Shown one piece after another: positions 25,667-60,921 of a stretch of 64,000 nt of DNA. The notes beneath the pieces were generated by a model. The model had not been told where the DNA came from, did not search any database, and saw only the letters and a list, made by a program, of their open reading frames with translations. This DNA comes from Fomitopsis serialis (taxonomy: Eukaryota; Basidiomycota; Agaricomycetes; Polyporales; Fomitopsidaceae). The position numbers and the translations under genes are program-made. Each line of letters begins with the position of its first letter. Within the stretch, counting starts at the first letter, position 1. The DNA lies in the NCBI RefSeq assembly GCF_022376445.1, contig NW_025955031.1, positions 1-64,000 of the forward strand. Reading direction: 5' to 3'.

Positions 25667-26948
25667 CTAAGAAACAGCGGGTGTAGGTATCGCAGGTTTA
25701 CGGAGCAGGATGTAAGCCGTCGTCCGAAGCAAGTGTCCAATGCCCCTGAAAGCCCGACCTAGCGGGCCTTCCTTCCTGTATACCAGCCGTTGGCGACATT
25801 TCCACCAGGGAAGTTTGCTTTGGATAGTCGCAAAGCGGCTCACGGCTTCGTCTGCAGTGGGGCGTTTCTGGGGGTCAGTCGCGACCATCGTCGCGACCAG
25901 GTCACTCAAGAATTCTAGCCCCGAGTACATCTATGTCGATATTAGCATACGGCCAGACGGAACAATGAACAGAGGCTACCTTCAAGAACTCCTCGCGAAA
26001 ACGGTTCCCAAGATAGTAGATGTCGGTTGCGAATGGATCACTGGCCTTATCATACCCATCGTCCTGAAACTCCGGCACAGTTTTGTCGCCTCCGAATATT
26101 GGCAACTCCAGTGGATGCTCGTCTTCCGGACCGTACTTCCTGGAAAGGCCGAAGTCGATGAAGTAGTACCTCGTCGGACGTTCAGTACGGGTGTATGGCC
26201 TCACACTCCTACTGAAGTCCCGCGTCATAGTATCATCGGTGGGGTGGTATAACTTTGGGTACAGTGGCAACGGATCCATCATGACATTGAGCATCGAAAT
26301 ATCACTGTGGTTAATATGGTCATTATACGGATTTCATGCGCCAGCACTGCTGCTCACCGGTGAGCGATGCGATGTTGATGTATGAATTGAAGGCCCTGAG
26401 TCTTCGTATTCAACACAGTTTGTTGCCGTTGAGCGTTAGACGCACCTCCAATGTTTGGCGAAAGAAATCAACGGCTTCGCCAACAGTGTCGAAACGAGGT
26501 CTGTGGTAAGCTTTGAGGATGGGCATTATGATAATGGAGATATCCTGCTCTATTGGGTCTTGCAGAACCTCGAGGATCTGCACGCAATGATTTCGCGGAT
26601 CCGACTTCATCGGCTCTTCGCAGAACATTCGAGCTATTTCCACCTCGTATGGGTGCACAGAATGCTCTATCATCTTGAGCGTGACAAGAGCTCCGTCCAA
26701 AATGCGTGTCGCATCAATAATATGAGGGTGCTAATGCGCATTAGTCCGAAGCATCATTCGTATATACGGACAAGACGCACACGTAGCATACGTCCATCCT
26801 CGCAGGAGAGGTGCGACTTTGTGGTCCCCTCCCACGAAGGCTTCCAATCCTGCCTGTATCGCGGGCGAAGCATGTACCCGTGTTCCTCAAGCCAGGGCTG
26901 TCGGTCGCGCCAGGCTATTTCGTCCTCGGTAAGCTGCCCACGCACCAT
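25667..26948 (-). CDS. FunK1-like protein kinase C
   Basis: Start at the ATG 26946-26948 (MVRGQLTEDEIAWRDRQPWL). The same five-exon plan as kinase A can be followed: N-terminal signature to CEDGR; IIDATRILDGALVTLKMIEH with the ATP-binding Lys; QFIHQHRIAHR (about 26350-26395), spliced to DISMLNVMMD; FIDFGLSRKYG; TVPEFQDDGYDK; DPFATDIYYLGN; MVATDPQKRPTADEA; stop at 25667-25669 after KPAIPTPAVS. Donor sites after exon 1 are not clear-cut. Catalytic residues are all in place. The variants DPLPLYP and FLSDLVATMVATD separate it, with pseudogene B, from the other copies. It is head to head with P1. Confidence 0.85.
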
Positions 26949-28298
26949 TGTGGTAGTCGAGCCTTGAATGTGGATGTCAGGAGTCTGAGCTATACCGCTT
27001 GCTGAGGGAGTCAGACTAGCTAAGGAACGAGAGAGACCACGGAACGGTATACATGGCCATGGTTCAACGCAAGAACAACAACAGACAATAACCGGCGAGC
27101 TGCGTGGGTACACGAAGTCGGGAGACGCCGGCGCCTGTCGGGTCCTGTATCGCCATCAACAACGCCGCGGCGCGCTGGCACAGGCTGGCACGCGCCCCAG
27201 ATGCGCCCATAGACTCCTCCTCCTGGATTCGCAGCTGTTGTTCTTGGACTCGTCTTCGTTGAATTTCAACACTTAGGTCTTTGCCAGATGCGACCCGCCG
27301 GCCGCGGGAATTCGGGAGAACTTGAACAACGCTTATGGTTTCTGAACATGCTTGTCCGGTCTTGCTGACACTCAGGCTGCCATGGACCTCAGACCAGCCT
27401 CGGATCGGCGACTGCGCCATTGGCCCAGGTGCTGAGTACTGAGTACTGAGCTATGATCCTGCTAGCTGGGAATCGGATATGCATGCATGGTGACCCCAGG
27501 GACAGAAACGACAACGCTTCAAGCTCGCGCTCAATATGTACTACCCGCGCACAGCGTGAACAGTACGACTGAATGGTGCTTGTATGTTACGATCAACCGT
27601 ATCATATGTTTGTCCAAGACGTCGGTACGTCGTGACTCGATACTTGGGCGTGACTTACTAATTTCTGTGCAGATGTTTGGCTGTTGTAACTTAACACCTC
27701 CGTGCCAAGCAAGGCAATTTGCGAACCGTGGTTACTATTGTGGAATCCACCACCCTCAAGCCCGATTAACAGGCTGTACAAACGAACAACATCGTATGCA
27801 GTTTGCGAACGGTTACGACACTAAGTCAGTGGATGGCTCATAGCGTTCGAGAACGGAATCCGGCGACGTCCAGGCCTACATATAGGCGGTGTTGTCCTTA
27901 TAATAGGTCTGAGCATCGTGGTATGTGACCTCATCACGGCTTCACATTTTTACGGCATTGTATAGCTTCTGAGGCGACTGAGGATTCAGTTCGGCTCCAA
28001 AGTCTTGTTCCTAACTTGACATCCAGAGCATGACGACGGCGATGTAATAAGCTACGAGGGTAGATAAGGAATCAAACTCGCTCTTGAATATCTCTGATCT
28101 CGGAGTATCTCTTACGTGATGAGGGTGGATGGAGGCACAGATTCAAGTTATGATGACCAGGCATCCGCGTTGCCAGGGCGAAGGATTTGGAGAGGTTTGT
28201 GTTGTTCCATTTCTCCCGCATGCCTGCCTATATGAGGCCCGCAGCGACAATCCACAAGGTATTCTCCCAGCTCGGACTTCTAGATACCTCTTCCTACA
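26949..28298. promoter_or_regulatory. Divergent spacer between kinase C and P1
   Basis: 1350 bases, the longest of the five kinase-P spacers. A TATA-like tatatga is at 28229-28235, about 65 bases before the P1 start. A minus-strand frame (27420-27064) with a helical piece VEIQRRRVQEQQLRIQEEES might be a small exon, but nothing supports it further. Confidence 0.45.
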
Positions 28299-29229
28299 AT
28301 GCCTATCACCGTCGAAGACTTCCTGGACACCGCAGACTTTGCTGCCAACTCATCTACTGCCTATAAAACAGTCATCGGTCCTCTCGTTCGCATGTTATGG
28401 CCATACAAGCTATTGCGCAAGGGCGACAAGCGTCTTTCTTCTGCCCTTGATTTACTGGACGAGGGGCGCGGTTACATGGATCGCAAGCTGCATCGAAAGT
28501 ACCATGATCGACATGATGAGTAAGCCACGATTTACGATATCCCGTCCTTGATTCGCGTCTCATCAGATGGCCACCGATACGGCAGGCTTTTCGATTTAGG
28601 ACAGACGTTGCGTAGCATTGGTGGCATTCCTAGCTGGTCGCAATACAAAGACTTCCAGCGGTATAAGGCGGACGCCAAGGTACTCTACCAGGATACCGCG
28701 GTGAGTCCACTCATAACCCCCCGTGCATGTTACATCCTCATTGTCTTTTCGCTATTTAGATCTCTTCCAGGCAAGCCAGAAGCCTGCATATACGGAAACT
28801 GATGGATAACACGAATTGCGCGACTGCGGCTGGCACGTCTCATTTATATTGCATGGCGACAGTATGTCATGACATGACTGTCCACGTAGTAGGTCTTGAA
28901 TCCCAGCGCGCGGACAATCACCACTGTACCGGCCTCACGACAGGTACATAGCCCCTGTTGATCATTGCGGTCTGCTGATAACCCTTGCAGTGGAGGATGC
29001 GGATGAGCGTGACATAACGGAACAGTTAGCCGAGGGCTCAGGCCGACTGGGAAACCAATACCCATCTTCCGCTTGCATTCCACTCCGCGAATTTGAGACT
29101 TCCACGAGACGCTACATCGACTCAATACAGGACGACAGCTCCATTCTGCAGCACCGCCCAATGTGGGCAGGTGATGAAGGTTCCATGCCCGGGCCCCGAC
29201 GACCTCGCAGGTATGTGCTTGAATGCTAG
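28299..29229 (+). CDS. P1: small accessory protein paired with kinase C
   Basis: No known domain recognised. Exon 1 (28299-28519) starts MPITVEDFLDTADFAANSS and carries the family core LLRKGDKRLSSALDLL and YMDRKLHRKYHDRHD. Exon 2 (about 28567-28700) contains LGQTLRSIGGIPSWSQYKDF and RYKADAKVL. Exon 3 starts at 28760 with ISSRQARS, the family's SS-x-x-AR motif. A last exon (about 28991 on) reads EDADERDITEQLAEGSGRLG and ends near DSIQDDSSILQHRP; the exact end is uncertain. The exon 1/2 junction is one base off in the frame that keeps the family homology, so either a different splice site is used or a base is missing. A partial second copy follows. Confidence 0.6.
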
Positions 29230-29810
29230 ACGTGACCTTGAGCTGATGACCTTGATGAACATAGGTAAGCTTATGTGCGATCGCTCATATAGCCGCGACG
29301 CTCACAAATGCTCAACAAGATACTCGCTTTAGCGCATGCTGCAACTTATGACGTGAATAGGCGTAACTTAGCACTTTGAGCATGGACTCGATCGAAACCA
29401 AGGGGCTGGCCCCCATGACTGTTGTTACTCGTATGTACGCATCTTCTTATCCCCGGAGCATATATGTTGGCAAGATAGTGTTCTGTCTTCAAATCCAGGG
29501 TGCTTACGCTGGGTGTGTAATAGTGACTAGTCGCTCGCTTGACGGGTTGTATCCAATAATGTATCATATGCAACAGAACTCTGAGTATCGGGCTGCTGAA
29601 TGCGCATCCCACGCGTTGGCTTACACGATATGACGGTCTGCAGCGGAGACAACGGCACCGTCACCGACGACAGTGTCCGCAAGCATGAAGACGTATCCGG
29701 AAGAACGTCCACCAAGCGCAATCTCGGAGTACGTGGGGCATGGGACAACAAGCAAGGAAACTCCGCGAACTTAGAAGCGAACGGGGCTATTCGTCACTAT
29801 TTAATTGAGC

Positions 29811-30499
29811 ACCACGATGGTGGCAGGATCGGATACGTTGTCCCTCTGCAGACCGTCCCAAGGAGAAATTATGAAAAGTATACTGACGCAGTATCTTCCA
29901 GGAAGGACAGTCGCTTCGCAAGATCACAGGAATCCTCAACATGGACCAGTATGCCACTATACGTGAGTACAAGCACAACGCGAAAGAGTTACAGAAGAGG
30001 ATGTCGGTAAGCCTGAGCCCAGTATCATAAAATGGTTCACGTACTCACAGCTCAACGAATGCTAGATCTCGTCCCAGATAGCGAGAAGCGATAATATCTG
30101 GGCGAAGTTGCATATGTCAGAAAGCGCACATACCGGTACGTTCCATCGCATCTTCGTCACTTGGCCTGAGCGTGAATCGTTTTTATGCATAAAGCTTTCG
30201 TTATCCATGAAGACGTCGACAATGAGATCAGTACTGCGGCAGGTATGTTGACGCTCGCAATCACCTACACCTCGAAGTGCAAACCTTCATATGTCATGTC
30301 AGACGGGACGCGAGACAGCATTGATATAACCGAGCAACGGCAGTCTCTGGCCCAGGGTCGGTTGACTAGAAACCATCCATCCACTGTGAACATCCCGCTC
30401 ACGAATCTCGAGTCGTCGACTACGCATGACGCCGACTCTCTACAAGACAACGGTTCTGTCCTGCAGTATCGCCCCATGCAGACGGATGACGTAGCTTGA
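29811..30499 (+). pseudogene. P1b: 5'-truncated tandem copy of P1
   Basis: After an intron near 29879-29902 the frame reads EGQSLRKITGILNMDQY and REYKHNAKELQKRM, parallel to exon 2 of P1. Then ISSQIARSDNIWAKL (about 30065-30110) parallels exon 3. The last exon (about 30300-30499) reads DSIDITEQRQSLAQGRL and ends DSLQDNGSVLQYRP, parallel to the end of P1. No exon 1 with the GDK core could be found, so it is truncated or its first exon is decayed (29230-29810). Confidence 0.6.
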
Positions 30500-30962
30500 C
30501 AGCCTATGTTCAGTAGGTTCCTCGAACGGTTAGTGTTTGGGTGACCGGGTCCCAGATAAATTCCAAGACTGACAAGGAGTCTCATGCTCATAGCCTTTGA
30601 AAGCACGGACGAGGAGCTGCGTCACTACGGCTATCGGATGTTCCATGTATAACCAAGCAGCTTGTATCTGTACGTCGAAAGACGAAGTGTGCAACATCTT
30701 TTGCTGTAGCCACAAGCTTCTTACGCTCTTTACTCGCTCGATACCACCGGGCTGGTCCCTGTGCTTGACGCACAGAGGCATGTTTTCAGTAAGTAGAGCC
30801 TGAGTATTCAATATTCAATACTCAACTATGTACTGTCCGAACCAAGTCCGAACCATCCAAGTCTGAATAAGGCGCGATGCTTGGCCCGTCCCTAGGTTGC
30901 TATTCCGATGGCTCCGGAACCTGAGACAGTGAACGACGAGCTCTCTGCATGATATCTTACAG

Positions 30963-31689
30963 TCACGATACACACTCACAAATACGAAACTCTGCCGCTC
31001 TGAGTAGCGCGGGATCCGGACGCGATACAGCACCGACACATCGGTTCATCACTGTACTTCTCAGTGCCAGTGGGTTTTCCATTGTGCAGATGAGTCAATT
31101 CCAGGTGCGACAGAGTCCCATAGCGACAGATACCTGGACGGAGCGCTCATACAGAGCTCGCACACAAAGGCGACATGCTCGCCCGGGGCGCTGATCGAAG
31201 AACACGAGCGATCACACGAAGCAGCCGACGGCACAGACCATACTGCGCCAATGCCGTGACTAGGCTAGTATGCACATCGGTTCGAATGGGGCCCGTACAC
31301 AGCATGCCAGCGACCAACGTATTGTTCTAGCCGTGCATCCGGGACTAGAATCGTGCGTCCATTCATAGCCGCGGTGTCTTGTATTTACTGCAAAGCCTGT
31401 CAGGTACAGCCGAGAATTGCGACCTTACCAGTAGACGCAATCCTTCAGGTTTCCTTCTGGGGTCAAGTTGAACAATGGCAACCCCTGCATACCATGGCTC
31501 GCACGGCTCTGAAACGTCACCAAACGGCGTTCGCCTCGGTGCATATGCACAGGTCCGGAGGTAATCCGGCTCACTCATTTCCCGCCTCTCTTCAGAGCTA
31601 AAGCGTCGGTGGATGAGAGTTGACGCGCAGGTCTGTCAGTGACAAGGTGAAAATTGATTTCGAGAAGCCTCTCACGATTGAGGAGGGAG
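30963..31689. repeat. Duplicated block X, copy 2
   Basis: Partner of the block at 24683-25353 and in the same position relative to its neighbour: about 410 bases beyond the 3' end of kinase D. The broken minus-strand coding traces correspond (RQSFVFVSVYRD; VPDARLEQYVGRWHAVYG; LLEINFHLVTDRP). A further minus-strand open piece just outside it (31910-31690, ending near MEYVGHRWGQH) may be the start of the same decayed gene. I cannot name the product. Confidence 0.7.
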
Positions 31690-32100
31690 GCCTGAGACGA
31701 AAGGCGATGAATCGACGGACCGACAGACGAGAGCTCTGGTCCAGGGTGACGGCAAGGCGGCGTCTTCCGAATCGCGTGCTCGCTTCGTTGGCCTTTTGCG
31801 CAATGGAACCGATGTCCAGATGTTGTCCCCATCTGTGCCCAACATACTCCATGACTGGAATATGAATAGGCAACGCGGTACTAGCTGTCGTGAGGATGTT
31901 TCGGAACAATTACGACTCAATGATCATATACATACCGGAGGTTCCGCGAAGGTTCCGCGCAGCAAGGTTCACGAACTTGAAGGTACAACGAGATCGTAGG
32001 ACCTCTTCCATAATCATCCGGGGGAGTATGTAGTAGTGTAAGTGACTAGATAGCAACAGAGCAAAGCAGACGTCGACGATGTAAGCACAGGGATGAGCTA

Positions 32101-33430
32101 TCAGTATGTTGGAGTCGGGATGGCAGGCAATCGCTTGACGAGATATCGCGCCGTCCGGAAGATGTGTTTTATTCCAAGTACAGTCCGGACGAGCACGTTC
32201 TCGTCCCTCTGGACCAGCCGAGCCCGCAGATTCCACGACGCGAGCTGGCTGAATAGCTTCTCAGATCTAGAGGCGACCTCCTCGATGGTCGGTCTTGACT
32301 CTGGATCGTTTTGCACCATGTCGGCGACAAAAGATCGCATGAACTCCATGTTACAGTATGGCTGCAGGGCACAGACGTGAGCGTGCTGAGCGCTGAAGCA
32401 CGGCGAGACACTCACCTCCAGAAAACCCTCCCGAATGAAGCTGCCTAAGTAGTAGATATCCGTACGGAATGGATCTGCTGGCTTGTCGTAACCGTCACCC
32501 TGAAACTCCGGTACGTTCTTGTCTCCACCGAAAATAGGCAGCTCGCGGGGGGGTCCGTTGTCGGGATCGTACTTGCGAGAGAGGCCAAAGTCGATGTGAT
32601 AGTATTTCGGTGGTCGCTCAGTTCGGGCGTAGTGTTTCACGCGCCCAGAGTAATCACGTTTCATGATAGACACTCTGGGATGCCACATGTCTGGATACAT
32701 TGGCGTACCGTCCATCATGACATTAAGGATTGATATGTCACTGCCGGGTATCAAACATTGCTTTCCTCATGGATAGAACGAACTCACCGATGGGCAACGT
32801 GTTGCTCATGCATGAATTGCAGTCCCTATACCGACGAAAGGATAAGCCGAGAGAGATTGGTCAGACACAGAAGCAAACGTACCTCTATCACCTGCTGTAG
32901 ACATGCGACTGCCTCGCCGACGGTGGCAAAGTCTGGATCATCGAATTGTCGGAGGAGGGGTAAGACAATGATCTTAATATTACCCTCCACAGGGTCAGGA
33001 AGGACATCCAACGTGCGAACACAACGATTGCGCGGGTCTGATGTCATAGTTTCAGACGACAAAAAGTGTCCGAGATCCACTTCGTAGGGGTGTATATCGG
33101 TGTCCACTTTCTTGAGCATAACCATCGCGCCGTCCGATATCCTCGTGGCATCCAGAACACCGCCGGTCTGCAGAGGGTATGAAGTCGTTATGTTCCGGTA
33201 TAAGTGACCCAATGAAGACCTACAATGATGGCCAGGCCGTCCTCACATGATAATAACGATTTGCTGGTTCCAAGCCAGGATGGTTGCCAGTCAGGCTTGT
33301 ATCGCGGCCGAAGCATATAGCCGTGTTCCTCGAGCCAAACCTGGCGATCTCGCCAGAAATGTTCGTGAGGTCTGAGCCCGCCGTGGAGACGACCAGGTGG
33401 AGGCGTTGCATCGGAGGATTGAGTTGTCAT
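32101..33430 (-). CDS. FunK1-like protein kinase D
   Basis: Start ATG at 33428-33430 (MTTQSSDATPPPGRLHGG). Exon 1 has HEHFWRDRQVWLEEHGYML and PDWQPSWLGTSK; exon 2 has VLDATRISDGAMVMLKKVD and HPYEVDLGHFLSSE; a short exon encodes GLQFMHEQHVAHR (about 32780-32818), spliced to DISILNVMMD; exon 4 has IDFGLSRKYD, NVPEFQGDGYDK and DPFRTDIYYLGSFIRE; exon 5 has MRSFVADMVQNDPESRPTI and ends PAIPTPTY (stop 32101-32103). Every exon is open, which makes this one of the best-preserved copies. Head to head with P2. It pairs with kinase E in sequence type (MYPxMWHP, HIFRTARYL/LFHTARHI tails). Confidence 0.9.
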
Positions 33431-34337
33431 CGCGCGTACATTCGACGATTACGAGTAGAGGGCTAGTGCTCAGAGCTGCTGAGGTGATAAGTGATACTTA
33501 GGTCTGTGCGCCGGGGACGAAGAGAAGGGATGGATGCGCTCACAATAGTTGAGTCAGAGCTCATTGTGTCCAAGTCGAGTCTCAGAGCAATACATACCCA
33601 CGGTCCGCGTTGTAAGCAGTACCTGTTGCGATCCTCACAGTGATGGGCCAACAAGGTCCGTGCGCGCTTGCTTGAGCGCCCACTCGCTTTCCTATGGTGG
33701 CTGTTCCACCGCCTCAGCGTAGCACGGTGCTGCGTGAATACTTACGTGTCGCGGCCGCCTTTGTCTATCCCATCTCGGGACACTTCTTTTCTCAAGGGTT
33801 CAGGTCCACCTTAGGACGCCTGAAGTGCATGCCCTCAATAACCGAATCATGTCTATCACGGTCAGTCCTCTCAGGTTGGTGGGAAATTGGAATGATGATC
33901 CCCTCGGCATGCGAGTGTGCATCGGACGGATTGACAGGAACACATGACAGTGTTACAAGAGTACTGGCACAGCGCAAAATCCATTGTCCATTTTTCCGCA
34001 ATTGAGAGCAAATCTTGCAGCCGATACCATGGTATGTGTCTATCAAAACGGTGTAGAATTTGTTCAAGTCTTGACGCAGATCCGAGGGGTCGTCTGTCAG
34101 TTACCGTACGTACGCTGACAATCAGTGGCGGCTCAAGACAACAAGACTTATTGATCGGACATCCTTGTAGCTTACGTTCGCTTCCCGACTTCCATCGGAT
34201 GTACACGGTAACCAGATGCCAGGGTTTTTCCCTAGCTGGTGCACGTTGTACACAATCGCTGCATCCGAGCGCCTGGCCTTTCTATATCATCCAGGAGAAA
34301 CGAAGAATAAGGGATTCGATCATACTCATCGCTCAAC
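33431..34337. promoter_or_regulatory. Divergent spacer between kinase D and P2
   Basis: 907 bases. A TATA-like ctatatca is at 34282-34289, about 50 bases before the P2 start. Short frames on both strands show no family features. Confidence 0.45.
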
Positions 34338-35791: not shown

Positions 35792-37134
35792 TCATTTCGA
35801 TGGTAATGGGACAGCAGGTAGACGTCTGACGATGTGTCGCGCCGTGTGGAAAAGGTGCGATATGTTACGCGTGGTCCGCGTGAACGCCGTCTCCTCTCTC
35901 TCCACGAGCCTGGCTCGTAGCTTCCACGATGAAAGCTGACCGAAGAGCAGTTCCGATCTTGAGGCGACCTCGTCGATGGTTGGCCTCTTGTCTGGGTTGT
36001 CCTGGACCATGTCGTCGACAAGCGGCCGCATGAAATCCACGTTACGATACTTCTGTAGCGGCTGTGAGCGTGCACGCTAGACGTAGCGGGAGATGACTCA
36101 CCTCCAAGAACGCCTCGCGGATCAAACTGCCCAGGTAGTAAATATCCGTGCGGAATGGGTCCCACGGTTTGTCGTATCCTTCACCTTGGAACTCGGGAAC
36201 GCTCTTGTCTCCGCCGCGGATAGGCAGCTCACGAGGAGGCCCATCTTCCGGATTGTACTTGCGGGAGAGCCCGAAGTCGATGTAGTAGTACTTCGGTGGC
36301 CTCTCGGTCCGGCTGTAGTGCTTCACGGATCCGGAGTAGTAGTCGCGGTTGAAGATAGGCATCTGGGGATGCCACATGTTTGGATACATTGCCGATGCGT
36401 CCATCATGACATTAAGAATGGTGATATCGCTATGAGCAGTGAGTGTCATTCCTTTACTCGCGTGAATGGCTCGAGCTTACCGATGAGCGACATGCTGTGC
36501 ATGTATGAATTGCAATCCCTGGGCAAATAGTAGCGGTCAGTGCAATAACATCGGCAACGGCAGGCAACTGGCTCACCTCGATGAGCTGTTTGAACAGAGC
36601 GACTGCCTCCCCACAGTTGAAAAGTCAGGACTGTTGAACCTTCGCAGAAGGGGCATCACAATAATGGAGACATCCTGCTCGCTTGGATCGGGAAGAACGT
36701 CCACCAAACGCATACAATGATTGCGCGGGTCAGAGGCAACGGGCTCAGAGGATAGGAACCGTGTGATTTCCACTTCATGAGGATGAACACGAGAGTTCAC
36801 CTGCTTGAGCATCACTAACGTGCCGTCCGATATCCTGGTGGCATCAAGTATGTTGCCGCTCTACAGAAAGGAGCCTGATCATGAGAGAGGCAAGATTGAG
36901 CGTTAAGTGAAGACTAACGAGAATAGTTAGTCCGTCTTCACACCCTATGAAGGACTTGTCTGTGCCGAGCCAAGATGGTTTCCAGTCCGGTCTATAGCGC
37001 GGTCGGAGCATGTACCCGCGCTCTTGAAGCCAGGGTTGTCGATCGCGCCATGCGCGTTCACGGTCGTTGAGTCCGCCATGACGGAAGTCAAGAGTTGGCG
37101 GCGGTTCCGCCATTTCTGAGGGCACGCTAGTCAT
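35792..37134 (-). CDS. FunK1-like protein kinase E
   Basis: Start ATG 37132-37134 (MTSVPSEMAEPPPTLDF). Signature exon: AWRDRQPWLQERGYMLRPRY and SWLGTDK. Exon 2: DGTLVMLKQVN, HPHEVEITRFLSSE and IIVMPLLRRF; then the reading slips one base near 36614-36620, where GTGGGGAGGC should probably be GTGGGCGAGGC to give TVGEAVALFKQ. Later exons are open: DITILNVMMDASAMYP, IDFGLSRKYN, SVPEFQGEGYDKPWDPF, FMRPLVDDMVQDNPDKRPTI, and a tail PAVPLPSK (stop 35792-35794). HRD and DFG are intact. I treat the slip as a base error, not as a pseudogene. Head to head with P3. Confidence 0.82.
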
Positions 37135-43238: not shown

Positions 43239-44549
43239 ATGGCCGTCTACCAAGCGACTGCGTCTGCCCCCGTGAACATTGCGTGCATCAAGTGAGCTGC
43301 TGTGCGTGGATAGGGGTGCGTATGCGATACTGACTGGCGCGGACAGGTACTGGGGCAAGCGGGACACGAAGCTCATCCTTCCGACGAACTCGTCCCTCTC
43401 GGTTACGCTTGACCAGGACCACCTACGCTCGACGACGACCTCGAGGCGGACCCTGCGTTTGAGAAGGATAGGCTGTGGTTGAATGGCGTCGAGGAGGAGA
43501 TTAAGGAGGTGGGCCGGCTTGCGACGTGCATCCGGGAGATGAAGCGGATGCGGAAAGAGGTTGAGGGGAAGGACTCTGTCTACCCAAGGTGCGTGTGTGT
43601 AGGCTTCCAATGTACGTTGAGATAGTGAACTGGTATTGCGGTCCAGCTCTCGACGTACGCCGTCCACATCTCCTCGCGAAACAACTTCCCTACCGCGGCA
43701 GGCCTCGCTTCCTCAGCCTCGGGCTTTGCAGCACTCGTCTCCTCGCTCGCTGCTCTCTACCAACTCCCCGCCTCCCCCTCTGAACTCTCCCTCATCGCGC
43801 GCCAGGGCTCCGGCTCTGCCTGTCGTTCGCTCTTCGGCGGTTCGTAGCTTGGGAATGGGCTCAAAGGCCGACGGCTCCGACTCGCTCGCCGTTGAGGTCG
43901 CACCACGTGAGCACTGGCCAGCATCCACGCCCTCATCTGCGTCGTCTCAGACGATAAGAAGGGCACGTCGTCCACCTCGGGCATGCAGCGCACGGTGGAG
44001 ACCTCGGCGCTGCTCCAGCACCGCATCAAGCACGTCGTGCCCGCGCGCATGAAGGCGATCAGCGAGGCGATCCTCGCGCGCGACTTCGACGCGTTCGCGC
44101 GGATCACGATGCAGGACTCGAACCAGTTCCACGCCGTCGCGCTCGACACGGACCCGCCGATCTTCTACATGAACGACGTCTCGCGCGCGATCATCGCGCT
44201 CGTCGTCGAGTACAACCGCGTCGCCGTCGCGGCCGGCGGGAAGCTCAAGGCGGCGTACACGTACGACGCGGGCCCGAACGCGGTCATCTACGCGCCGAAG
44301 GAGAACCTGAAGGAGATCGTCGAGTTGATCGTGAACTACTTCCCCCAGGCGGAGTCGTTCAAGGACCCCTTCGGGCTGTTCGGTGCGCTGGTGTGCAGGG
44401 CAAGGTCGTCGAGACTTCAACGCTGCAGTGGCGAAGCCTTTCGGCGTGGGCGCTGTGAAGAACCTGATCCACACGAGGGTCGGCGACGGCCCCAGGTACT
44501 TGGGGCGGAGGAGGCGCTGCTGGGTGCGGATGGATTGCCGAAGGCGTAG
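43239..44549 (+). CDS. MVD1: Mevalonate diphosphate decarboxylase
   Basis: Converts mevalonate-5-diphosphate to isopentenyl diphosphate in the sterol pathway. Start ATG 43239 ([18 protein letters not shown]), exon 1 to 43291; exon 2 (43347-43588) [20 protein letters not shown] and [16 protein letters not shown]; exon 3 from 43647 with [30 protein letters not shown] (GHMP ATP-binding loop), [42 protein letters not shown] and a tail ending LGADGLPKA (44547-44549). To stay in this frame a single base must be restored at about six places: near 43442 (GGG read as GG), 43843 and 43856, 43920, in 44375-44420, and 44510. Because the gene is normally single-copy and essential, I take these as consensus errors. 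Confidence 0.92.
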
Positions 44550-46119: not shown

Positions 46120-46128
46120 TATAAAAGG
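46120..46128 (+). promoter_or_regulatory. TATA box of the small cysteine peptide gene
   Basis: TATAAAAGG, 92 bases before the start codon at 46212. It is followed by a C/A-rich, G-poor leader (caaccactcaccaacccaac and similar), the typical build of strongly expressed fungal genes. Confidence 0.75.
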
Positions 46129-46211
46129 CGGTCGTGAGCACCAGCAATCCCCAGTCCTCGACTACACAACCACTCACCAACCCAACCTCTCCAACCCAAC
46201 TCTCGAACAAC

Positions 46212-46362
46212 ATGTCTGTGAGTGTGTTCTGGTCAACGTGGTGATCCAGGCTGTGGCTGACAGGGGTAACAGGACAAGGCTACCTGCGCTAACGTCCAGG
46301 CCAACGGCGGCTCCTGCACCTACCCCGCCTGCGGCTGCGCCGAGCCCCCCAAGAGCAAGTAG
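46212..46362 (+). CDS. Very short cysteine-containing peptide (31 residues)
   Basis: Exon 1 is only ATG TCT (46212-46217) followed by a GTGAGT donor; the intron ends GGGTAACAG at 46272; exon 2 is 46273-46362 with stop TAG. The predicted peptide has 31 residues with Cys at 7, 17, 22 and 24 (motifs GGSCTYPACGCAEPP). All codons of exon 2 are C-ending or otherwise preferred (GCC, AAC, GGC, TCC, ACC, TAC), as in highly expressed genes. The CxC pair and the size recall fungal metallothionein-like peptides, but four Cys is few, so that is only a suggestion. No signal peptide. Confidence 0.65.
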
Positions 46363-52106: not shown

Positions 52107-52174
52107 CGCAGGCCGCCCAAACATTGGCTACTTCGTACTTAGATGTTGCTACTGATTCCAGTCGTGCGCAGTAG
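52107..52174 (+). pseudogene. P-family exon remnant beyond kinase F
   Basis: After an acceptor-like CTGCAG the frame reads QAAQTLATSYLDVATDS and stops at 52174. The same exon wording (QAAQTLAFTSAADRPP) occurs at about 57180 beyond kinase G. I take both as leftovers of P-type genes whose other exons have decayed. Confidence 0.4.
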
Positions 52175-52350
52175 TATGTCAGAGCATAATCTTTGCTAGA
52201 ATGAAGACAAGAGATGCGCAGCAATGAGGACGACTCAACGACGGTCTCCGATCAAAAAATTAACCAAACAATGCGATATCCTCCGGCAACAGTAGATCGA
52301 CAGCAGACAACAATGACGACGTAGTGTAGTGAATGGTATGAGAGTGTGTA

Positions 52351-53697
52351 TCATGAAGAGGGAACGGGTATGGCAGGCCGCCGCTGGGCGACAAGCTTCG
52401 CTGTCCGGTAGACGTGCATCGTACCACGCACCGCACGCACGATCACACTCTCGGTCTTTCCCACCAGTCTCGCTCGTAGCGTCCACCACGAAAGGCGTCG
52501 ATATATCTCGTCGAACCGCGCCTCTACTTCCGCGATAGTCGGGCGCTTCTCCGGATCGTCCTGCACCATGTCGGATATGAGCTCTCGCATGAAGTGTAAG
52601 CCCCGATATTTCTGTAGGACATTGTGCGATTTAGCGTGGCTGAGAAGGATTACTGTAAATGCGAGACAGCATACATTCAAAAATGTAGTTCGCATGAGAT
52701 TGCCAAGATAGTAGATGTCGGTGCGAAAGGGATCGGAAGCCACATCGTAGCCTTCACCTTGGAATTCTGGGACGCTCTTGTCGCCACCCATAATTGGAAA
52801 CTCCCTCGGTGGCGCGTCTGCAGGGTTGTATTTGCGCGACAGACCGAAGTCGATGTAGAAGTACTTGACTGGTCGCTCGGTGCGGCTCCAGTGCTTCGCG
52901 GGTCCCGAGAAGTCACGGGTATATACCGACATGCGAGGGTGCCATAACGTCTCCGAATACATTGGTACTGCGTCCATCATGACGTTTAAAATCGAGATGT
53001 CCCTAGGAGATGAGGTGAGCTTCGCAACCGAGTCAGAAGAAGAATGTAGTCACCGATGAGCAACATGATGGTCGTGCATGAAGTGCAGGCCCTAGGAATT
53101 GGATGGTCTGAGAATGAACAAAGACGTGGGACTTGTGTGCTCACTACGATGGCCTGCTTGAAGAAAGCAACCACTTCTCCGATTGTCAAGAACTGAGGCT
53201 CCCTGAATGGCTTCAGGAGAGGCATAACGATGATAGATACCTTCGGATCCATCGGATCTCGTAGGACGTCAAGGATGCGCACGCAGTGGTTCCGCGGATC
53301 CTGTGCCATCTGTTCAGACGACAGAAACTCTCCAATCTCTACCTCGAACGGGTGGACGACATTATTGACTGCCTTCAATGTCACCAGCAGGCCGTCGGAT
53401 TGCCGGGTTGCATCTAGGATGGTATCCACCTACAGGGGACTGAGATGACACCATGAGATGTTCGCTGTATGGGCGCACCAGTGTGCTTTGGCCGTCTTCG
53501 CAGAGGACGTAGGGCCTCCCGCTACCTAACCACGAAGGCTTCCAGTCTGGCCTGTAACGTGGGCGGAGCTCATATCCGCGCTCCTGAAGCCACGGCTGTC
53601 GATCGCGCCAGAAGTATTCATGCTCCTCGAGCCCACCACGGATTTTGGGGGCCGGTGTACCAGCCTGACCGTCGGTCGTGGATGGTTGTGCAGTCAT
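52351..53697 (-). CDS. FunK1-like protein kinase F
   Basis: Start ATG 53695-53697 (MTAQPSTTDGQAGTPAPK). Signature exon: HEYFWRDRQPWLQERGYEL and DWKPSWLGSGR. Exon 2: TILDATRQSDGLLVTLKAVN, HPFEVEIGEFLSSEQ, VSIIVMPLLKPF. Short exon GLHFMHDHHVAHR (about 53055-53093), spliced to DISILNVMMDAVPMYS. Exon 4: WSRTERPVKYFYIDFGLS, SVPEFQGEGYDV and DPFRTDIYYLGNLMR. Exon 5: FMRELISDMVQDDPEKRPTI, FDEIYRRLSWWTLRARLV and a tail PAIPVPSS (stop 52351-52353). All exons open and all catalytic residues present. Head to head with P4; its MTAQPSTxD start is shared with kinase G. Confidence 0.9.
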
Positions 53698-54474
53698 AAC
53701 AACCCGTTATCAGTCAAAGTAGACTGAGGGGAGTACAGTGGCAGCGTTGCAGCATACTTCGCAGATAGACAGACTTCAAGTTGGGGGTTCCTGCACGACA
53801 GTCTCAGCCAATGCTGTTGTTCAAGTCACGGCGGTGTGGGCGTCAGTGCGGCGAGCGCCCATGCGATCGGGCGGCGGCGACGCGGCAAGACTCGGAACTC
53901 TCTGATCGCGTGTCCACACCGTCTTGTTACTACCACTGGCACAGGTTACTACAGCTGTCTCCGAGACATGTCTTCTAATATTCATGTACTAGCATCCCGT
54001 CTTGCGGCAGCTCCCTGTCGTGCTTCGCTGTTTGGTTCACTTTTCGTTGCCAGTCCTCAAGTGATGCCGCCTTGGGTGTCCATCTTCATGTGACCGCCGG
54101 GAACCTATGGTGTCGTTCCGGGGGACTGGCCTAACAAGAAGGGACGTAATGGGCCAGCGAAGAGCCATTGTTCTCCAAATCAACGTAAAAGACGTCCTGT
54201 CGAACTGTCATCTTGGCGCACCGTTGCAATAAGGACTATTGTTACCGTGGTGGAGCTCGGCCTCAGAGCGAGGATCCGAGTTATACGCACAGCCGACTTC
54301 CAAATTGATGTGAGGTACGCATCTTGTTTTCAGTCGTTCGTATCCAAGGCATTTACCTTTCTTTGACATGCCTTATTTATCACAGCGTCAGCCGTGATTT
54401 ATATACGCTTGCAGTGCTACCAAGTTGCCCCAACCATCTACGTTGCCTCCACTCCCGTTTGCATTGCTTTCAAC
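53698..54474. promoter_or_regulatory. Divergent spacer between kinase F and P4
   Basis: 777 bases. A TATA-like tttatatac is at 54398-54406, about 70 bases before the P4 start. The kinase side shows no clear TATA box. Confidence 0.45.
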
Positions 54475-55486
54475 ATGATGTCTCTGAACGACGCCAGCGT
54501 CAGCCAAATCAGCACGGATTCTGATAGCTCGCAGAAGCAATCACAGTTTATACTGTTCAGCGTCATCCCTGCGTCCTTCAGGGCCTCATCCATGCTGAAG
54601 GAAGGTGATAAGGCCCAACGTGTGACGCTGAAGCTACTCGAGAAGACGCAAACCTACATGGACAAACCCCTTCACAACCGTTTGCACCAGCGTTACGATG
54701 GGTATGAACTCAGTCCCTCCATGTGTATCTTATACAGTCGTTGATGTGGTTGCAGGCTCAAAGAAGGCAGGCTGTCAATCAAGCGCGGCTTTTTCGCGAG
54801 GGGCAAACAATGGGATGAAATCGTGGTGTACAGGAAGGGGTCTGTCGAGCTGAGCGATTTTACTGTGGTATGTAGTATCACCTGCTATCATTGTCGGCGA
54901 CTGACTTTGCTGATGATGATGACGTCAGGTCTCGTCAGAAATTGCGCGCAGTAAGCAGATGTGGAACAACAAGTTTCGAGAGTCTTCACCGGCCCAAGCC
55001 AGTCATTTATCTCCATCCAACTCAGGTAGGGGCTGCGTCATAGTCCCATCTCGTCCTACAGCATTGACCGTCAGCAGCCTCCCAGCCAGACTACGCTTTT
55101 GCTAGGTCAGCCTTGGCCGATGCCGTGCCGACTAACAGTGCAAATCAAGATGGCGTAAACAATATTTCAGGCTCCTCAGGTTCGTACTTTTCTCAATGTT
55201 TGCTCCGAGTCCACTGTTTCTCAACGTCCCCTCAATGCTAGTTGGTCCCGTACATGAACTCGAAGAGGACGACACGACGCGACCATCCGAGTACGGGATC
55301 TGTGAGCTGGACTCGAAGGGCTTCCTAATCAATAGTGACAAGGCCTCCGTCTTGACGGACATCGAGTTACAGAAAATGGTCGAACGTGGAGACATAGAGT
55401 TCACGTCTGAGCCTGCCGAGGATGACTCGGAGAGCAACCCATTTGCCGATAGCGGCGAGGTTGCTGGGCAGATGACAGGTGCATGA
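54475..55486 (+). CDS. P4: small accessory protein paired with kinase F
   Basis: Unrecognised family. Exon 1 (54475-54701, phase 2 end) starts MMSLNDASVSQISTDSDSS and carries FILFSVIPASFRASSMLKEG, then DKAQRVTLKLLEKTQTYMDK and HNRLHQRYD. Exon 2 (54756-54867): LKEGRLSIKRGFFARGKQWD and VVYRKGSVELSDFTV. Exon 3 (54929-55025) opens VSSEIARSKQMWNNKF. Exon 4 (about 55107-55182) is ALADAVPTNSANQDGVNNIS. The last exon reads VHELEEDDTTRPSEYG, LTDIELQKMVERGDIEF and DDSESNPFADSGEVAG, stop at 55484-55486. All junctions close in phase. Acidic tail; about 240 residues; no signal peptide or membrane helix. Confidence 0.75.
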
Positions 55487-56499
55487 AGGACACTCGCCCG
55501 GAGGCAGCAGCCCCAGAGTTGTCTTTTAGTTCGAAGATGGACTTTCCTATCAATAACCGGCGGCGCGCGGGCGCGAACTGGCCCATTGCACATGGTACTT
55601 GTAGAATATTCGTTATTTGTAATCTCACACTGCTACGAACATCAGATGACCATTGCTTCTACCTCTTGCCAATGGATGCACCAGTGAACATCGTCTACAT
55701 AGGCTGAAAGATCTATCTATCGTGTGTGCCCTCGTAGACTCGCGTTGACTACATAGACCTCGTGGCCTGCTTTTAGCTTTTGTAAATTATCATGTCCTGC
55801 GATGACGAGGAAGGATACGCTCGTTGTGTCTGAACTAGACCTTTTTGTCATTCTAAAGGACGGTCATCGTCCAGAATCCTCGCGACATCTGCGTACGCTG
55901 TCCGGATGCACTCGGCGCCAATCGGAGGTGCCCGATCGCAGTCCTCCTCCATCATGCTGCCGCATCAGCATTCCTGCATTCCGAGTCCCTCAAGCTCAAG
56001 CTTAGAGCGCTCTTCTCCCTCTCCCTACTGCATCGGTCATTATCGTTCAATATCCACCGTGACGGTCAATACTACTACCAGTAGTGTCGGGTGGAGTCGC
56101 GCAGGCGGCGGCTACACTGCCAGATACTATCTAGTACTAGTACTACTTCTTGGCAGGGCCCTGGCATACTAGCCGACGACCGTCTCTCTCCCTATAATAA
56201 GTACATAAGGATGAGAACGCCGCCATGCGTTACTGCGTCATGCTTCTGGGTAGCGAAGTGCGCACTAGATTTCATTTGCCACCTTATGCTGTTGTCTGAG
56301 GTCAGTGAATATTTGAACAGCGTCCACACATCTTCCCCGCCTGTCGGAACCGAATACGGTCTCATCTTGGTACTGCATCACCGTTTCAGAATTGTCATCG
56401 CGGCACCGGGAGCCTGAGCATAGCAGCCCATTTTATTAAGTATTACGCAGCATTCATATTATGAGCAGCCTCTTTAACCGATCCTTTCTTCGCGGACGA
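55487..56499. other. Region after P4 without an assignable gene
   Basis: Short frames only. A TACTACTACTAG-like repeat tract occurs near 56069-56080 and 56130-56150. Nothing recognisable. Confidence 0.4.
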
Positions 56500-57310
56500 A
56501 GCGAATGTCAGCACCCAGTCCACGGCGAGCGATGCTGACGCGAACGATGACTTGCCCTACACATCCCTAGGTCTGTCATCTCTTCGACTCTCGCGTCATC
56601 GGCGATCGCAGCTGAACATGACTCAGACGAGATACGCGACCTCTTCGCGGCTCTGAAGCTGGAGGGCATCTTCAACGATCACACCGTTTTCGCTGATCTC
56701 TCGGAGCCGGAGCTGCAAGTATCAGTCGGGGTCAAGGTCAAACTTCCCGGAGACGATGCTGACGCAAACACACCGGCACCTCAATGGATGTCCTTTTCGC
56801 GCCACAAATGCACGAGTCTTGTGTATCTTCCAATCCGGCTACTTTGGATTGATATAATAGTAATGACCAGTAGATGCGACTTGAAGTAGCCCATAGCGAG
56901 GACCCCACTATGGTACAGAATGCTATATTCATACTCTGCCAGTGAGTAAGCGTGGCTGGCCTGCAGTGTACAATGGTGCCGTGAGTATGATTTCTTTGGA
57001 CTAGAGGTTCACCCACACTGTGGCTTGCGCTGGTCAGCGTACAGCCCAGCGACTGGCATGGGTGCCATGGGTGACATAGTCTGCGCGCTACTAGCCTCCT
57101 CACAGCGAAATCCTTGTTACGCGCAGCCTGACTCGGAGGTGCATCAGTTAACGGCTGCAATTGCCAATTACCTGCAACACAGGCTGCCCAAACATTGGCC
57201 TTCACTTCTGCTGCCGATAGACCTCCAATAGGCCCGATCGACGGCGAGGAAAATAGCCCCATAGCCATGTCGCAGAGCGTACATGATAGTCAATCTGGCG
57301 CAAGCCACCA
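56500..57310 (+). pseudogene. Probable decayed P-type gene (P7)
   Basis: Two pieces look coding. One, open from about 56571 to 56889 without an ATG, reads HDSDEIRDLFAALKLEGIF and HTVFADLSEPELQVSVGVKV. The other, near 57170-57310, reads QAAQTLAFTSAADRPP and PIDGEENSPIAMSQSVHD. Between them the sequence aligns with 61885-62240, the continuation of remnant P6. I could not find an exon 1 with the GDK core, so the assignment to the P family is weak. Confidence 0.35.
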
Positions 57311-57650
57311 TCTTCTTTCGTTAGTGCCTGATATTTACGGCAGAGAAATGCAGTAGCCGATCACTGCGCATGATTGCCCGTGCTCTCATATCAGCGCCGT
57401 GTGCTTGTAGTATGCTGTCTTTGTGTACGACTACTGAGGGGCGCTCCGTCGGTGAACGTTGCTATCTGGATTCGTGGCATCTGAGGCTGCCACGCGATAA
57501 AACTTGTATTGGAATGTCGCCGATGTTCGGTACCGCCTTGCCACATGAGTGACAGCAGTATGACAGACGACCCATGGAAGGGATAGTTTGTTGGCCAGGT
57601 CCAGCGCAGCCAGACGCAAGAACACTACCTTAGCATTGATCCGAGCCGCG
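56890..57650. repeat. Duplicated block Y, copy 1
   Basis: Aligns by eye with 61885-62570; shared stretches include cactgtggcttgcgctggtc, tatgatttcttgggact-like and gggcgctccgtcg. Both copies lie just beyond the 3' end of a kinase (G here) in the F/G/H group. Confidence 0.65.
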
Positions 57651-57814
57651 CGTAGTGCTGTCTCAGAGCCCAGGTGTCTAGAATGAATGATGACAACAGA
57701 TGCGCAGCGGTGACGAGTCAAGCCAATAGCCAAATAATGTGATATCCTCCAGCAGTAAGTAGATCGACAGCAGATGATAGCGCAAAGTATGGTGGATGGG
57801 TATGAGCGTGCAGA

Positions 57815-59142
57815 TTATGAAGGAATCGGTACGGAAGGCAGCCGCTTGGCAACGAACCTCGCTGTCCGAAAGACATGCAGCATACCAAGCACAGCTCGCT
57901 TGAAGCCGCTCTCGTCTTGATGTACGAGCCTCGTCCGGAGCTTCCACCACGAAAGCCGGCGATATATCTCGTTGAATCGAGTTTCGACCTCTGCGATAGT
58001 CGGTCGCTTCTGCGGGTCGTCTTGCACCATGTCCTGCACCAGCTGCTCCATGAACTCGAAGCCACGATAGGGCTGAGAATCGACATTCAATAGTGTAGAT
58101 CGCACGAGTGGTCAAAAACATACTTTCAAAAAGGTTATTCGTAAGAGATTGCCAAGATAGTAGATGTCGGTACGGAAAGGGTCGGCAGGTACGTCGTAGC
58201 CTTCTCCTTGGAACTCGGGGACGGTCTTGTCGCCACCAAATACCGGTAACTCTTGTGGCGGACCGCTCGAAGGCTCGTATTTTCGGGACAACCCGAAATC
58301 AATGTAGAAATATCTTGGTGGCTGCTCGGTGCGACTACAGTGCTTTGCCTTGCCGGAGAAGTCTCGAGTGAAACTTGAGACTTCAGGGTGCCATAGCTTC
58401 TTTGAATACATCGGCATGGCGTCCATCATAACGTTCAAGATGGAGATGTCCCTGATGAACGGCTCTAAGCTTTGCAATGTAGCCAGTATGAGAATATTGC
58501 ACACCGATGAGCAACATGATGGTCGTGCATGAAATGTAGTCCCTAGGTAATGGGTCAATCACCGCAGTAAATGAAACGCGGCTCATGTACATACCTCAAT
58601 CGCCTGCTTGAAGAACGCGACAGCCTCTCCGATTGTTGAAAATTCCGGTTCGTCAAAGATCTTGAGGAAAGGCATGACAATAATCGACTTCTTCGGGTCC
58701 ATTGGATCCTGCAATACGTCGAGGACGCGTATGCAGTGGTTCTTCATGTCCTGTGCTAGTTGCTCAGATGACAGGAATTGCCCTATGGCCACCTCGAACG
58801 GGTGAACGCCAGTGTCGACCGCCTTCAGCGTCACCAACGAACCATCCGACTGCCGGGTGGCATCAAGGATGGTATCTACCTGACGACAGAATGAGACAAG
58901 ACCGTGAACGACTTGCCGGAGGAGCGTACCATTGTGCTTTGACCGTCCTCGCATAACTCATAGTCCCTGTCCGTACCTAGCCAAGAAGGTTTCCAATCTG
59001 GCATATACCGTGGGCGCAACATGTACCCGCGCTCCTGGAGCCATGGCTGTCGATCACGCCAGAAGTATTCGTGCTTTGCGAGCCCGCCGGGTATTTGGGC
59101 AGCTGGCATACCAGCGTCGGCCGTGGAAGGTTGCGCGGTCAT
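57815..59142 (-). CDS. FunK1-like protein kinase G
   Basis: Start ATG 59140-59142 (MTAQPSTADAGMPAAQIPGG). Signature exon: HEYFWRDRQPWLQERGYML, PDWKPSWLGTDRDYELCEDG. Exon 2: TILDATRQSDGSLVTLKAVD, HPFEVAIGQFLSSEQ, IIVMPFLKIF, TIGEAVAFFKQAIE. Short exon near 58500-58545, spliced to DISILNVMMDAMPMYSKKLW. Exon 4: FYIDFGLSRKYE, TVPEFQGEGYDVPADPFRTD. Exon 5: FMEQLVQDMVQDDPQKRPTI, RLSWWKLRTRLVHQDESGF, tail KRLPSVPIPS (stop TAA at 57815-57817). Exons are open. In helix C the usual EVE reads EVA, so the Glu partner of the Lys may be shifted. Head to head with P5. Confidence 0.9.
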
Positions 59143-59914
59143 AAAGACCCAGATTCCGTCAAGATTGAGCGGGGAGTATACGGTGACAGTCTCGCAACAT
59201 ACCGCGCGGGGCACAGACTTGGAGGATCCTCTCCAAGTCCTATTGTTTGTTCGTTCAAGGCGCCGCTGTCACGGTCACGATGTGGGCGTTTGTACGCAAG
59301 CGCCCATGTGATCGAGCGTCTATGGTGAGACCGTCGCCGCCAACTCGCCGCCGACTCCCTGTGGACCTGGTTGACTTCAATCTGAACTTTGAAGGTGGCT
59401 GCCGGCAGCGCGCGATCCTACCGCCTATACCGCGTTTGACGACCTTCAGAATACTTCGTGTGGGCTCTGCACCAGACACCAGACACATTGGAATCCGCGA
59501 TTCAAGGCGCCGCATCGTATGCTACTACACTGCACAAGTTTGTCGTCCTACTCTTGCAGCTCGAGACGCTCGCCAGACAAGGAAGTACATACCGGGTGGA
59601 AAATCCTTGTTTTCGACTCCGTACGTCAGAGAAGCTACGTGGCTCCATTGGAAAATCGTCGCAACAAGAAAGTCTCGCATGTCACTGACACCGGCCTGGG
59701 AAGCATCCATGCACGCTAGACCAGCGGATCTTGACGTGATGCCCGCGTACCTAGGCAGGCGACCCTTTTCGAAACGACCAGTATCCAGGGCGTCCAGCCA
59801 TTTTTGTCATGCGTTATCTTCCACAGCCTCTGCCGCGGTTTAAATACATTCCAAGCACGTCAACCCGTTAGTTCACTTACCTCCAGATATCTGCTCTCGT
59901 TTGCGTCTGACAGA
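59143..59914. promoter_or_regulatory. Divergent spacer between kinase G and P5
   Basis: 772 bases, nearly the same length as the F-P4 spacer. A TATA-like tttaaata lies at 59839-59846, about 70 bases before the P5 start. No other gene supported. Confidence 0.45.
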
Positions 59915-60921
59915 ATGTCTCTGCCCGACGGTGACCTCGGTGGAAGCGGCAACGCCAGTCAAACTCAAGACAAGCCTCGTCGATTCATCCTTCTTAGTCT
60001 GCCCGAGTCCGTCCTGGCCTCAGTCGTACTGAAGGAAGGCGATAAGGCACAAGCGAAGACGCTACAGCTACTGGAGGAGACGCATGCCTACATGGATAAA
60101 CACGTTCATAACCGTTTACATGAAAGATACGACGAGTACGGCATTCAGACTCCCTCTGCTGTTGAACATGACTGATGTCATTTTTGCAGCTTGAAGACTA
60201 ACAGGCTCGAGATGAAGCACGGATTCATCAAGCGAATACAACAATGGGATAAAATTGTGGTCTACAGGGATAGATCTATCAAGTTGAAGAAGCTGACCGT
60301 GGTACGTAGCACGACTTTTTCGTCACGATCATGGACTGGCGATGGCGCAGTCCTCATTGTTGATGGCGGCAATGTCAGGTCTCTTCAGAGCTCGCACGGA
60401 GCGAGGAGTTGTGGAAGCATAAACGTCACAGGTCTTCGCCAAAAAACAATCGACCGTCACACGATGCAGGTGAGCTGTACCACGCGTTGTGTCGTTCCGA
60501 TTTGGACTCATGATTCGTACCAGCCTCGACATCTCGTCAATCCACCGTGGATGAAACGCTGGCAGAGTTTGACCATGCTTCACCAGTTACGAGCCAACTC
60601 GGTGCAAATGTTGATGCGCCTGCCACTTCCCCTGGTTGGTGCTCTCTATAGGAATTACGTGCTCTAAGTCTCACCATAGTTTCTTGCACAGTTGATCCTC
60701 CAGCTGCACCAGAAGATGCTATCACAGTTCAGCCGCGTTACGTCGCTGTTGAAGCGGACTCGGAGGGGCAGCCCGTTGGTGGCCCCGTCTCCTTCCACTC
60801 GGAGATCGAACTACAGGATATGATCAAACGCGGACAGCTCGAGGAGGTACTCGAGACGCCCGATGACAGTAATCCATTCGCGGATAGCCGTGGAGTAGCT
60901 GTATCACCAGACGCAGCGTGA
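59915..60921 (+). CDS. P5: small accessory protein paired with kinase G
   Basis: Unrecognised family, closest to P4. Exon 1 (59915-60135, phase 2 end) starts MSLPDGDLGGSGNASQTQ, then RRFILLSLPESVLASVVLKE, GDKAQAKTLQLLEETHAYMD and HNRLHERYD. Exon 2 (60190-60301): LKTNRLEMKHGFIKRIQQWD and VVYRDRSIKLKKLTV. Exon 3 (60379-60470) opens VSSELARSEELWKHK. Exon 4 (from about 60530) is polar: STSRQSTVDETLAEFDHASP. The last exon (from about 60690) reads VQPRYVAVEADSEGQP, SEIELQDMIKRGQLEEVLE and DDSNPFADSRGVAV, stop 60919-60921. All junctions close in phase. About 250 residues, acidic C-terminus. Confidence 0.75.

Follow-up and report, generated by a model that had tools for sequence, protein, structure and literature searches.

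A tandem array of divergently transcribed kinase and small-protein gene pairs in Fomitopsis serialis

What keeps a protein kinase gene and a small gene of no evident family head to head, with the same partner and in the same orientation, time after time along one contig? The question is raised by the first 64,000 bases (the window) of contig NW_025955031.1 of Fomitopsis serialis, a wood-rotting basidiomycete and polypore of the family Fomitopsidaceae. An initial annotation, made from the letters alone, described in this window a module repeated five times, in which a FunK1-like kinase on the minus strand faces a small protein gene, here called P, on the plus strand; it read the constancy of the pairing as a sign of joint regulation and joint function. 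We followed up this module in the whole genome of 66.2 Mb in 806 contigs. The contig that holds the window (C679; 202,363 bases) is treated as the main haplotype, and two further contigs, C206 and C400, represent this region on the other haplotype; C206 was covered at 7.9-34.1 kb with two gaps, and all statements on haplotype 2 that concern C206 hold for that part.

Kinase and P were duplicated as one segment

Kinase models in the window were obtained by spliced alignment of a same-family kinase, B, to the window DNA, whilst P2, P4 and P5 were modelled by hand, in frame from ATG to stop. The five predicted pairs stand at the expected places and on the expected strands, and their start-to-start gaps were reproduced to the base. 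Along the window, with every kinase on the minus strand and every P on the plus strand, they are kinase C (25667..26948) and P1 (28299..29351, the end being taken from the public model), 1350 bases apart; kinase D (32101..33430) and P2 (34338..35364), 907 bases apart; kinase E (35792..37134) and P3 (38138..39174), 1003 bases apart; kinase F (52351..53697) and P4 (54475..55486), 777 bases apart; and kinase G (57815..59142) and P5 (59915..60921), 772 bases apart. The array runs on beyond the window with five further pairs. Kinase H (62760..64000 and on to contig position 64094, minus strand) lies across the window's end, and its partner P6, modelled from genome matches, is found outside at contig positions 64912-65969 on the plus strand with a gap of 817 bases; the gaps of I/P7, J/P8 and L/P10 are 779, 788 and 754 bases, and that of K/P9 is 750 bases, or 732 if counted from an in-frame ATG 18 bases upstream. 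C679 thus carries ten pairs with gaps of 732-1350 bases, and the array spans about 57 kb from kinase C to P10. One more pair, M2/q32, with a gap of 883 bases, is present on the other haplotype, where M2 is unbroken; on C679 kinase M is interrupted by two frame breaks, and beside it no P could be detected. Kinases C to H have five exons each.

Whole-genome queries with kinase G gave 145 matches, and those with two P proteins gave 31 and 18. They also revealed a relic unit between P5 and kinase H (61595..61875), in which a kinase C-terminal piece (61595-61753, minus) adjoins a piece of P exon 1 (61780-61875, plus). When the order of 24 genes and decayed copies was shuffled, this relic at 61.6 kb being omitted, the observed arrangement with a kinase directly left of P in ten cases out of ten had a p of 0.0006; the appropriate null model, however, is tandem duplication, under which just such an order is expected.

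The P genes are supported by public models. P2, P4 and P5 each have five exons with intron phases 2, 0, 1 and 1, and public gene models cover seven P genes (P1-P5, P8 and P9). The public protein P0003 is P4 (260 amino acids) and is identical to the spliced model throughout. P0001 corresponds to exons 1-4 of P5, P0004 to exons 1-3 of P2, P0002 to exons 3-5 of P3 (the 3' part of the gene) and P0005 to P1; P0007 is P8 and P0008 is P9, both of which diverge from our first hand models from exon 4 on. For P genes other than P4, public and hand models agree in the exons common to both, up to the differing later exons. By eye, the P1 exons have a partial second copy at about 29.6-30.5 kb, which looks decayed.

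We then compared nonsynonymous (dN) and synonymous (dS) divergence. The four least saturated of seven P pairs gave a dN of 0.37-0.44 against a dS of 1.07-1.42 (dN/dS 0.27-0.40), and the third codon positions were the most variable in all seven. In five pairs of kinase paralogues dN/dS was about 0.07-0.16 (in four of them dN was 0.13-0.16 against a dS of 0.95-1.96), and kinase allele pairs had a dS of 0.01-0.04. These values demonstrate that the kinase and P are both real protein-coding genes under purifying selection and that P evolves faster, as is also seen in the distance matrices.

Distances between kinases and distances between their P partners were compared over 11 pairs, the ten of C679 and M2/q32 of C206, the haplotype-2 copies standing in for D, E and G. 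The two sets mirrored each other (r 0.82, Mantel p 5e-5, which is the floor of 20,000 permutations), and did so within the eight units F to M2 (r 0.72, p 0.003). The paired kinases are 22-49% apart in protein sequence, which means that the repeats are not doubled reads. The kinase and P trees agree where they are resolved. Kinases F to I group with B (support 100/100) and are matched by a group of P4 to P7 (86/73); kinase J groups with M and M2 (100/99), and on the other side P8 groups with a metagenome protein, P0009 (84/82), q32 being unplaced. P1 to P3 form long branches without a firm position, and support in the P tree is modest.

Because the distances mirror each other and both genes are under purifying selection, we conclude that an ancestral segment with a divergent kinase and P was duplicated as a unit. 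The repeated two-gene module with two coding genes is therefore borne out. Its reading as a sign of joint regulation is not: constant partner, orientation and spacing are inherited with the duplicated segment and provide no independent evidence of joint regulation. The spacers have more 8-mers in common than shuffled ones, and the commonest, TGGGCGCT, is found in seven of the 11 units at a distance of 143-245 bases from the kinase start, in either orientation. A bidirectional promoter was considered and rejected, as this 8-mer is proximal to the kinase and is also present before a same-family kinase without P on contig C799.

Loss of P and kinases without P

The second haplotype allowed us to follow individual units. 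C206 and C400, which abut at window position 43,270, align with C679 in nine collinear pieces of 86-99.8% identity (86.2% for M/M2, 93.1% around C, 95.6-98.2% for five pieces and 99.8% for two) and repeat the order of C679 for the units that they hold; three flank or interval pieces gave 97%, 97% and 100%. Units J, K and L are not on C206. Kinases F2, G2, H2, I2 and M2 have no frame breaks. Three of the P genes that belong beside these kinases are deleted or broken. P4 is gone: 2.9 kb of C679 (53,888-56,795) have no counterpart, and in the examined part of C206 a P4 query matches paralogues only. An insertion of about 3 kb with inverted ends interrupts exon 1 of P6, and one of about 2.2 kb, also with inverted ends, interrupts exon 1 of P7, whose following exons are lost; both insertions were read in part. 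The two insertions (C206 positions 18816-21839 and 25543-27726) differ from each other, and each lies inside exon 1 of a P gene. An intact P without an adjoining kinase was not seen on C679, C206 or C400, the P3 copy on C400 having given no clean model.

The haplotype copies also bear on the single-base shifts of kinases D and E. In this assembly exon 2 of kinase E (36577-36860) is shifted by one base in a G-run; there the haplotype-2 copy is unbroken, although shifted elsewhere. The shifts in E and in the haplotype-2 copies D2 and E2 all lie in homopolymers, and each is not present at the same place in the other haplotype. The unbroken copy at the G-run makes an error likely for kinase E, and the shifts in the D and E copies are probably assembly errors.

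Members of the kinase family were found elsewhere in the genome on contigs C799, C120, C35, C512, C179, C601, C585 and C1, with weak matches on C292 and C56. In the upstream stretches read for the kinases on C799, C35, C512 and C601, which like kinase B look intact, P alignments gave no score clear of shuffles. Within the window, kinase B (19705..21067) is inverted onto the plus strand and is placed by the tree with F, G, H and I, and no P was detected in the 1.5 kb upstream of it. The spliced P alignment used in this comparison separates the two situations: five P loci were scored by other family members at 119-320 (shuffles 39-60), whereas six P-less stretches scored 48-57.5 (shuffles 37-73). 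Two decayed kinase copies complete the set in the window, one at 22593..23782 (minus; four frame breaks in the alignment, for which P2 and P3 as tblastn queries gave no P) and the other a C-terminal fragment at 18418..18800 (minus), recovered by spliced alignment. Four same-family kinases elsewhere without P upstream, and three losses of P beside intact haplotype-2 kinases, speak against an obligatory joint function. The coupling of kinase and P is not obligatory.

The kinases on C512 and C601 each have a small divergent reading frame of their own. That on C512 begins with a hydrophobic stretch and shares intron phases 2 and 0 with P; it was rejected as a P relative, its spliced P alignments being within shuffles and a profile comparison giving a probability of 0.1-0.5%. 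The idea of a divergent small partner for these kinases in general was accordingly set aside. Another family of small, hydrophobically starting proteins was noticed, comprising L089 (C512), L091 (C512) and L092 (C223). One member stands head to head with a same-family kinase, a weak match is found downstream of that kinase, and a third is on C223; the intron phases are 2 and 0 as in P, and there is no sequence link to P. On C601 the small frame divergent to the kinase (L090; 42789-43082, minus) looks helical and matches only itself in the genome.

The two proteins

All ten kinases examined match the general kinase profile PF00069 at E <= 0.01 (B with 32.5 and G with 37 bits, the cut-off being 31.7), and seven of the ten match PF17667, the FunK1 profile, at the same threshold (best 1.6e-4); for B and G, for which bit scores are at hand, the PF17667 scores are 19.9 and 19.6, under the cut-off of 24.1. 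In a PF17667 profile search of the genome, which gave 165 matches among best candidates, none of the matches listed was on C679. Over the ten aligned kinases K93, H181, R182, D183, N188, D233 and G235 are invariant and correspond to the catalytic Lys, HRD, Asn and D-x-G; by eye, no usual Gly-rich loop was evident. The Lys of the catalytic loop (position 8 of subdomain VIB) is replaced by a nearly invariant Ser (Thr in kinase E), and Ser at this position is given as a mark of FunK1 in PMC3203195. The family described there resembles the present one in being fungal, strongly expanded and duplicated in a lineage-specific way; the excerpt of that paper mentions no fixed small partner gene. As judged from sequence, the term FunK1-related is a fair one: the catalytic-loop Ser agrees with the FunK1-like label of the initial annotation, whereas B and G fall below the Pfam cut-off and the kinases are best matched by the generic PF00069.

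P has a much narrower distribution. With a consensus of its N-terminal domain, 30 of 30 genome matches at E <= 10 fell on C679, C206 or C400, and the off-locus matches of P queries (one on C800, three on C17, C46 and C201) all had an E of 0.27 or worse. As far as detected by these searches, P is confined to this locus in the 66 Mb genome. Scans of 11 P proteins against Pfam and NCBIfam gave best E values of 0.028 and 0.016, none convincing; cut-offs, given for single proteins, were not reached, and PDB profiles showed no sequence link; by these profile scans P is a family unclassified in Pfam and NCBIfam. Searches of 5.8 billion proteins, two of which scored the best 8000 candidates by common words, returned beyond F. 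serialis only two metagenome proteins: P0006, 87% identical to P1, and P0009, 47% identical to q32 and 46% to P8, on contigs of 959 and 1452 bases. These searches are not exhaustive (one missed P8 and P9 and another P1, P2 and P4, though all are in the database), and polypore relatives at about 50% identity or lower could escape them. Among the open-licence papers listed, no title or abstract opening described a kinase-P pair.

An AlphaFold2 model of P4 (19 aligned rows, including single-exon translations; overall predicted local distance difference test score, pLDDT, 67) predicts helices at residues 33-57, 64-83, 88-93 and 95-132. Residues 31-130 form a putative helical bundle with ten-residue pLDDT means of 83-97, the remainder being of low confidence. 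A model led by P0009 (pLDDT 67) repeats the bundle, with helices at 33-55, 62-83, 87-92 and 94-130, and shows weak strands in the tail; since nearly the same alignment underlies it, it does not prove the fold independently. Foldseek with the P4 model returned nothing at E <= 0.001, and matches to plant nucleotide-binding leucine-rich repeat (NLR) proteins, the DnaK lid, FAT and designed bundles (VIA-align) were set aside as lying within the usual range for helical bundles. A hydrophobic stretch precedes the bundle most clearly in q32, P0009 and P3 (19-residue hydropathy 1.98, 1.75 and 1.67), other P proteins reaching 0.6-1.4. The head has a net charge of 0 to +8 and the tail is acidic.

The tails often carry short motifs of the NPFxD type. 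An exact NPFxD is present in six of the 11 P proteins (NPFRD in the tail of P2), each with a tail-shuffle probability of <= 0.002; [ND]PF is found in eight of 13 P sequences against 0.47 expected by shuffling, and variants of NPFxD are seen in P3 and P0009. One match to SHD1, the Sla1-type domain, is present in the genome (C1 positions 822699-822890). Drs2p, Dnf1p and DnfA are P4-ATPases. According to the review PMC7889276, NPFX(1,2)D is an endocytic signal of yeast, with DPFxD, NPF and DPF as weaker forms, and the signal is also used by DnfA of Aspergillus. P may resemble such NPFxD/Sla1 cargo in that its tails often have NPFxD, DPFxD or NPF and an SHD1 is encoded in the genome; it differs in that the cargo named there is Drs2p, Dnf1p and DnfA, whereas P is small and helical and has no more than one hydrophobic segment.

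Two further features of the window were noticed. A two-exon gene at 46212-46362 encodes a peptide of 31 residues with four Cys, metallothionein-like by eye. It matches 38 places in the genome at E <= 1, of which 24 have 87-97% identity, on both haplotypes and with partly common upstream DNA, and belongs to a large family of near-identical micro-peptide genes. At 15300-18000 on the minus strand lies a gene that by eye looks F-box-like and belongs to a dispersed family, with 51 stretches on other contigs at 66-85% identity.

What the pairing may mean

Our working interpretation of the array goes beyond the co-duplication itself and is held tentatively: P would be a membrane or endocytosis adaptor controlled by the kinase. 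One ancestral segment with two divergently transcribed genes, a FunK1-related kinase and P, would have been repeatedly duplicated into a tandem array. P would act as a cytoplasmic adaptor. Its mostly basic helical bundle, preceded in some copies by a hydrophobic segment, would sit at the membrane; its linker, rich in Ser and Thr, would probably be phosphorylated by the kinase next to it; and its acidic tail would present NPFxD-type motifs to Sla1, itself an endocytic adaptor. P would be switched on or off by the kinase, and duplication would yield a set of parallel kinase-adaptor channels. Since kinases persist without P, the pair would be cooperative and not obligatory. Several of the observations weigh against this interpretation. 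P4, P6 and P7 have been lost beside intact haplotype-2 kinases, and the upstream stretches of the kinases on C799, C35, C512 and C601 scored no P above shuffles; TGGGCGCT looks linked to the kinase, being present before the P-less one on C799. The predicted P4 fold is a generic helical bundle without a decisive structural match. P1, P8, P9 and q32, four of the 11, lack [ND]PF altogether, and P4 to P7 may all have inherited a single motif. An [ND]PFxTD also occurs in the conserved core of every one of the 17 kinase sequences tested, counting haplotype copies, so that the motif by itself is little proof.

About as likely as a kinase-adaptor unit is a hitch-hiking by descent, in which the pair is kept together only by segment duplication, the two genes have separate functions without a regulatory link, and P is being lost. 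The three losses, the four other loci without P in the stretch read, kinase B, which clusters with paired kinases and yet lacks P, the kinase-proximal 8-mer and the faster divergence of P all fit this view, whereas purifying selection on P over deep divergence (dS > 1), the failure to find an intact P apart from a kinase and the mirrored distances within the F to M2 subset argue against it. A poison-antidote or allorecognition system seems unlikely. In such a system P would be a helical effector that acts on membranes, with the kinase as guard or antidote to it, so that loss of P would be a tolerated 'resistant' state and loss of the kinase only would not. The one-way loss (three P broken or deleted with the kinase intact, the reverse not seen) is consistent with it, as are the broken M without detectable P on C679 set beside the presence of q32 and of an M2 free of frame breaks on the other haplotype, the copy number that differs between haplotypes at J, K and L, the hydrophobic segment of q32, P0009 and P3, and the role of a kinase domain as the resistance part of Spok drivers in the available part of PMC6660238. 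The events are few, though; divergence between haplotypes does not clearly exceed that of the flanks within the array, Pfam shows no toxic domain in 11 P, and under hitch-hiking, too, one would expect the younger gene to be lost first. It is similarly doubtful, and slightly more so, that the locus represents a two-gene poison-antidote or allorecognition system of a mushroom-forming fungus in which every kinase of the family guards a fast-evolving, membrane-active helical partner of its own, multiplied in tandem, with copy number and P content varying between the two haplotypes of one strain. Finally, the single-base homopolymer differences between the haplotype copies of D and E might suggest an artefact, the P exons being non-genic or the repeats an assembly error; we regard this as very improbable, given that public models contain the same P exons, that third codon positions vary most in every P pair tested and that the haplotype contigs repeat the unit order.

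Known systems offer partial parallels. Plant NLR immune-receptor genes in head-to-head arrangement are divergent two-gene units kept paired through duplication; kinase and P share the divergent arrangement with them, whereas the protein families are others and the pairing is often broken here. HeLo/MLKL-type executioners have a helical bundle and sometimes a hydrophobic N-terminal segment; a helical bundle is predicted for P as well, with no sequence link and a structure match that is not decisive. Spok of Podospora, as presented in the section of PMC6660238 at hand, is one protein with a predicted nuclease and a kinase domain, in a block that varies between strains. The likeness would lie in a kinase as the antidote half and in variation, there between strains and here between haplotypes; the difference is that the genes are separate here, that 11 P have no Pfam nuclease match, and that killing or drive is a candidate reading only.

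To our knowledge, few substrates or partners are known for the expanded kinase families of mushrooms. A kinase still found with one and the same small partner in all ten copies of the unit provides candidate kinase-substrate pairs, together with natural P-minus controls on haplotype 2. If the P tails do bind Sla1, these kinases would be linked to endocytosis; if instead the one-way loss reflects toxicity, the array would add a new kind of conflict locus in fungi.

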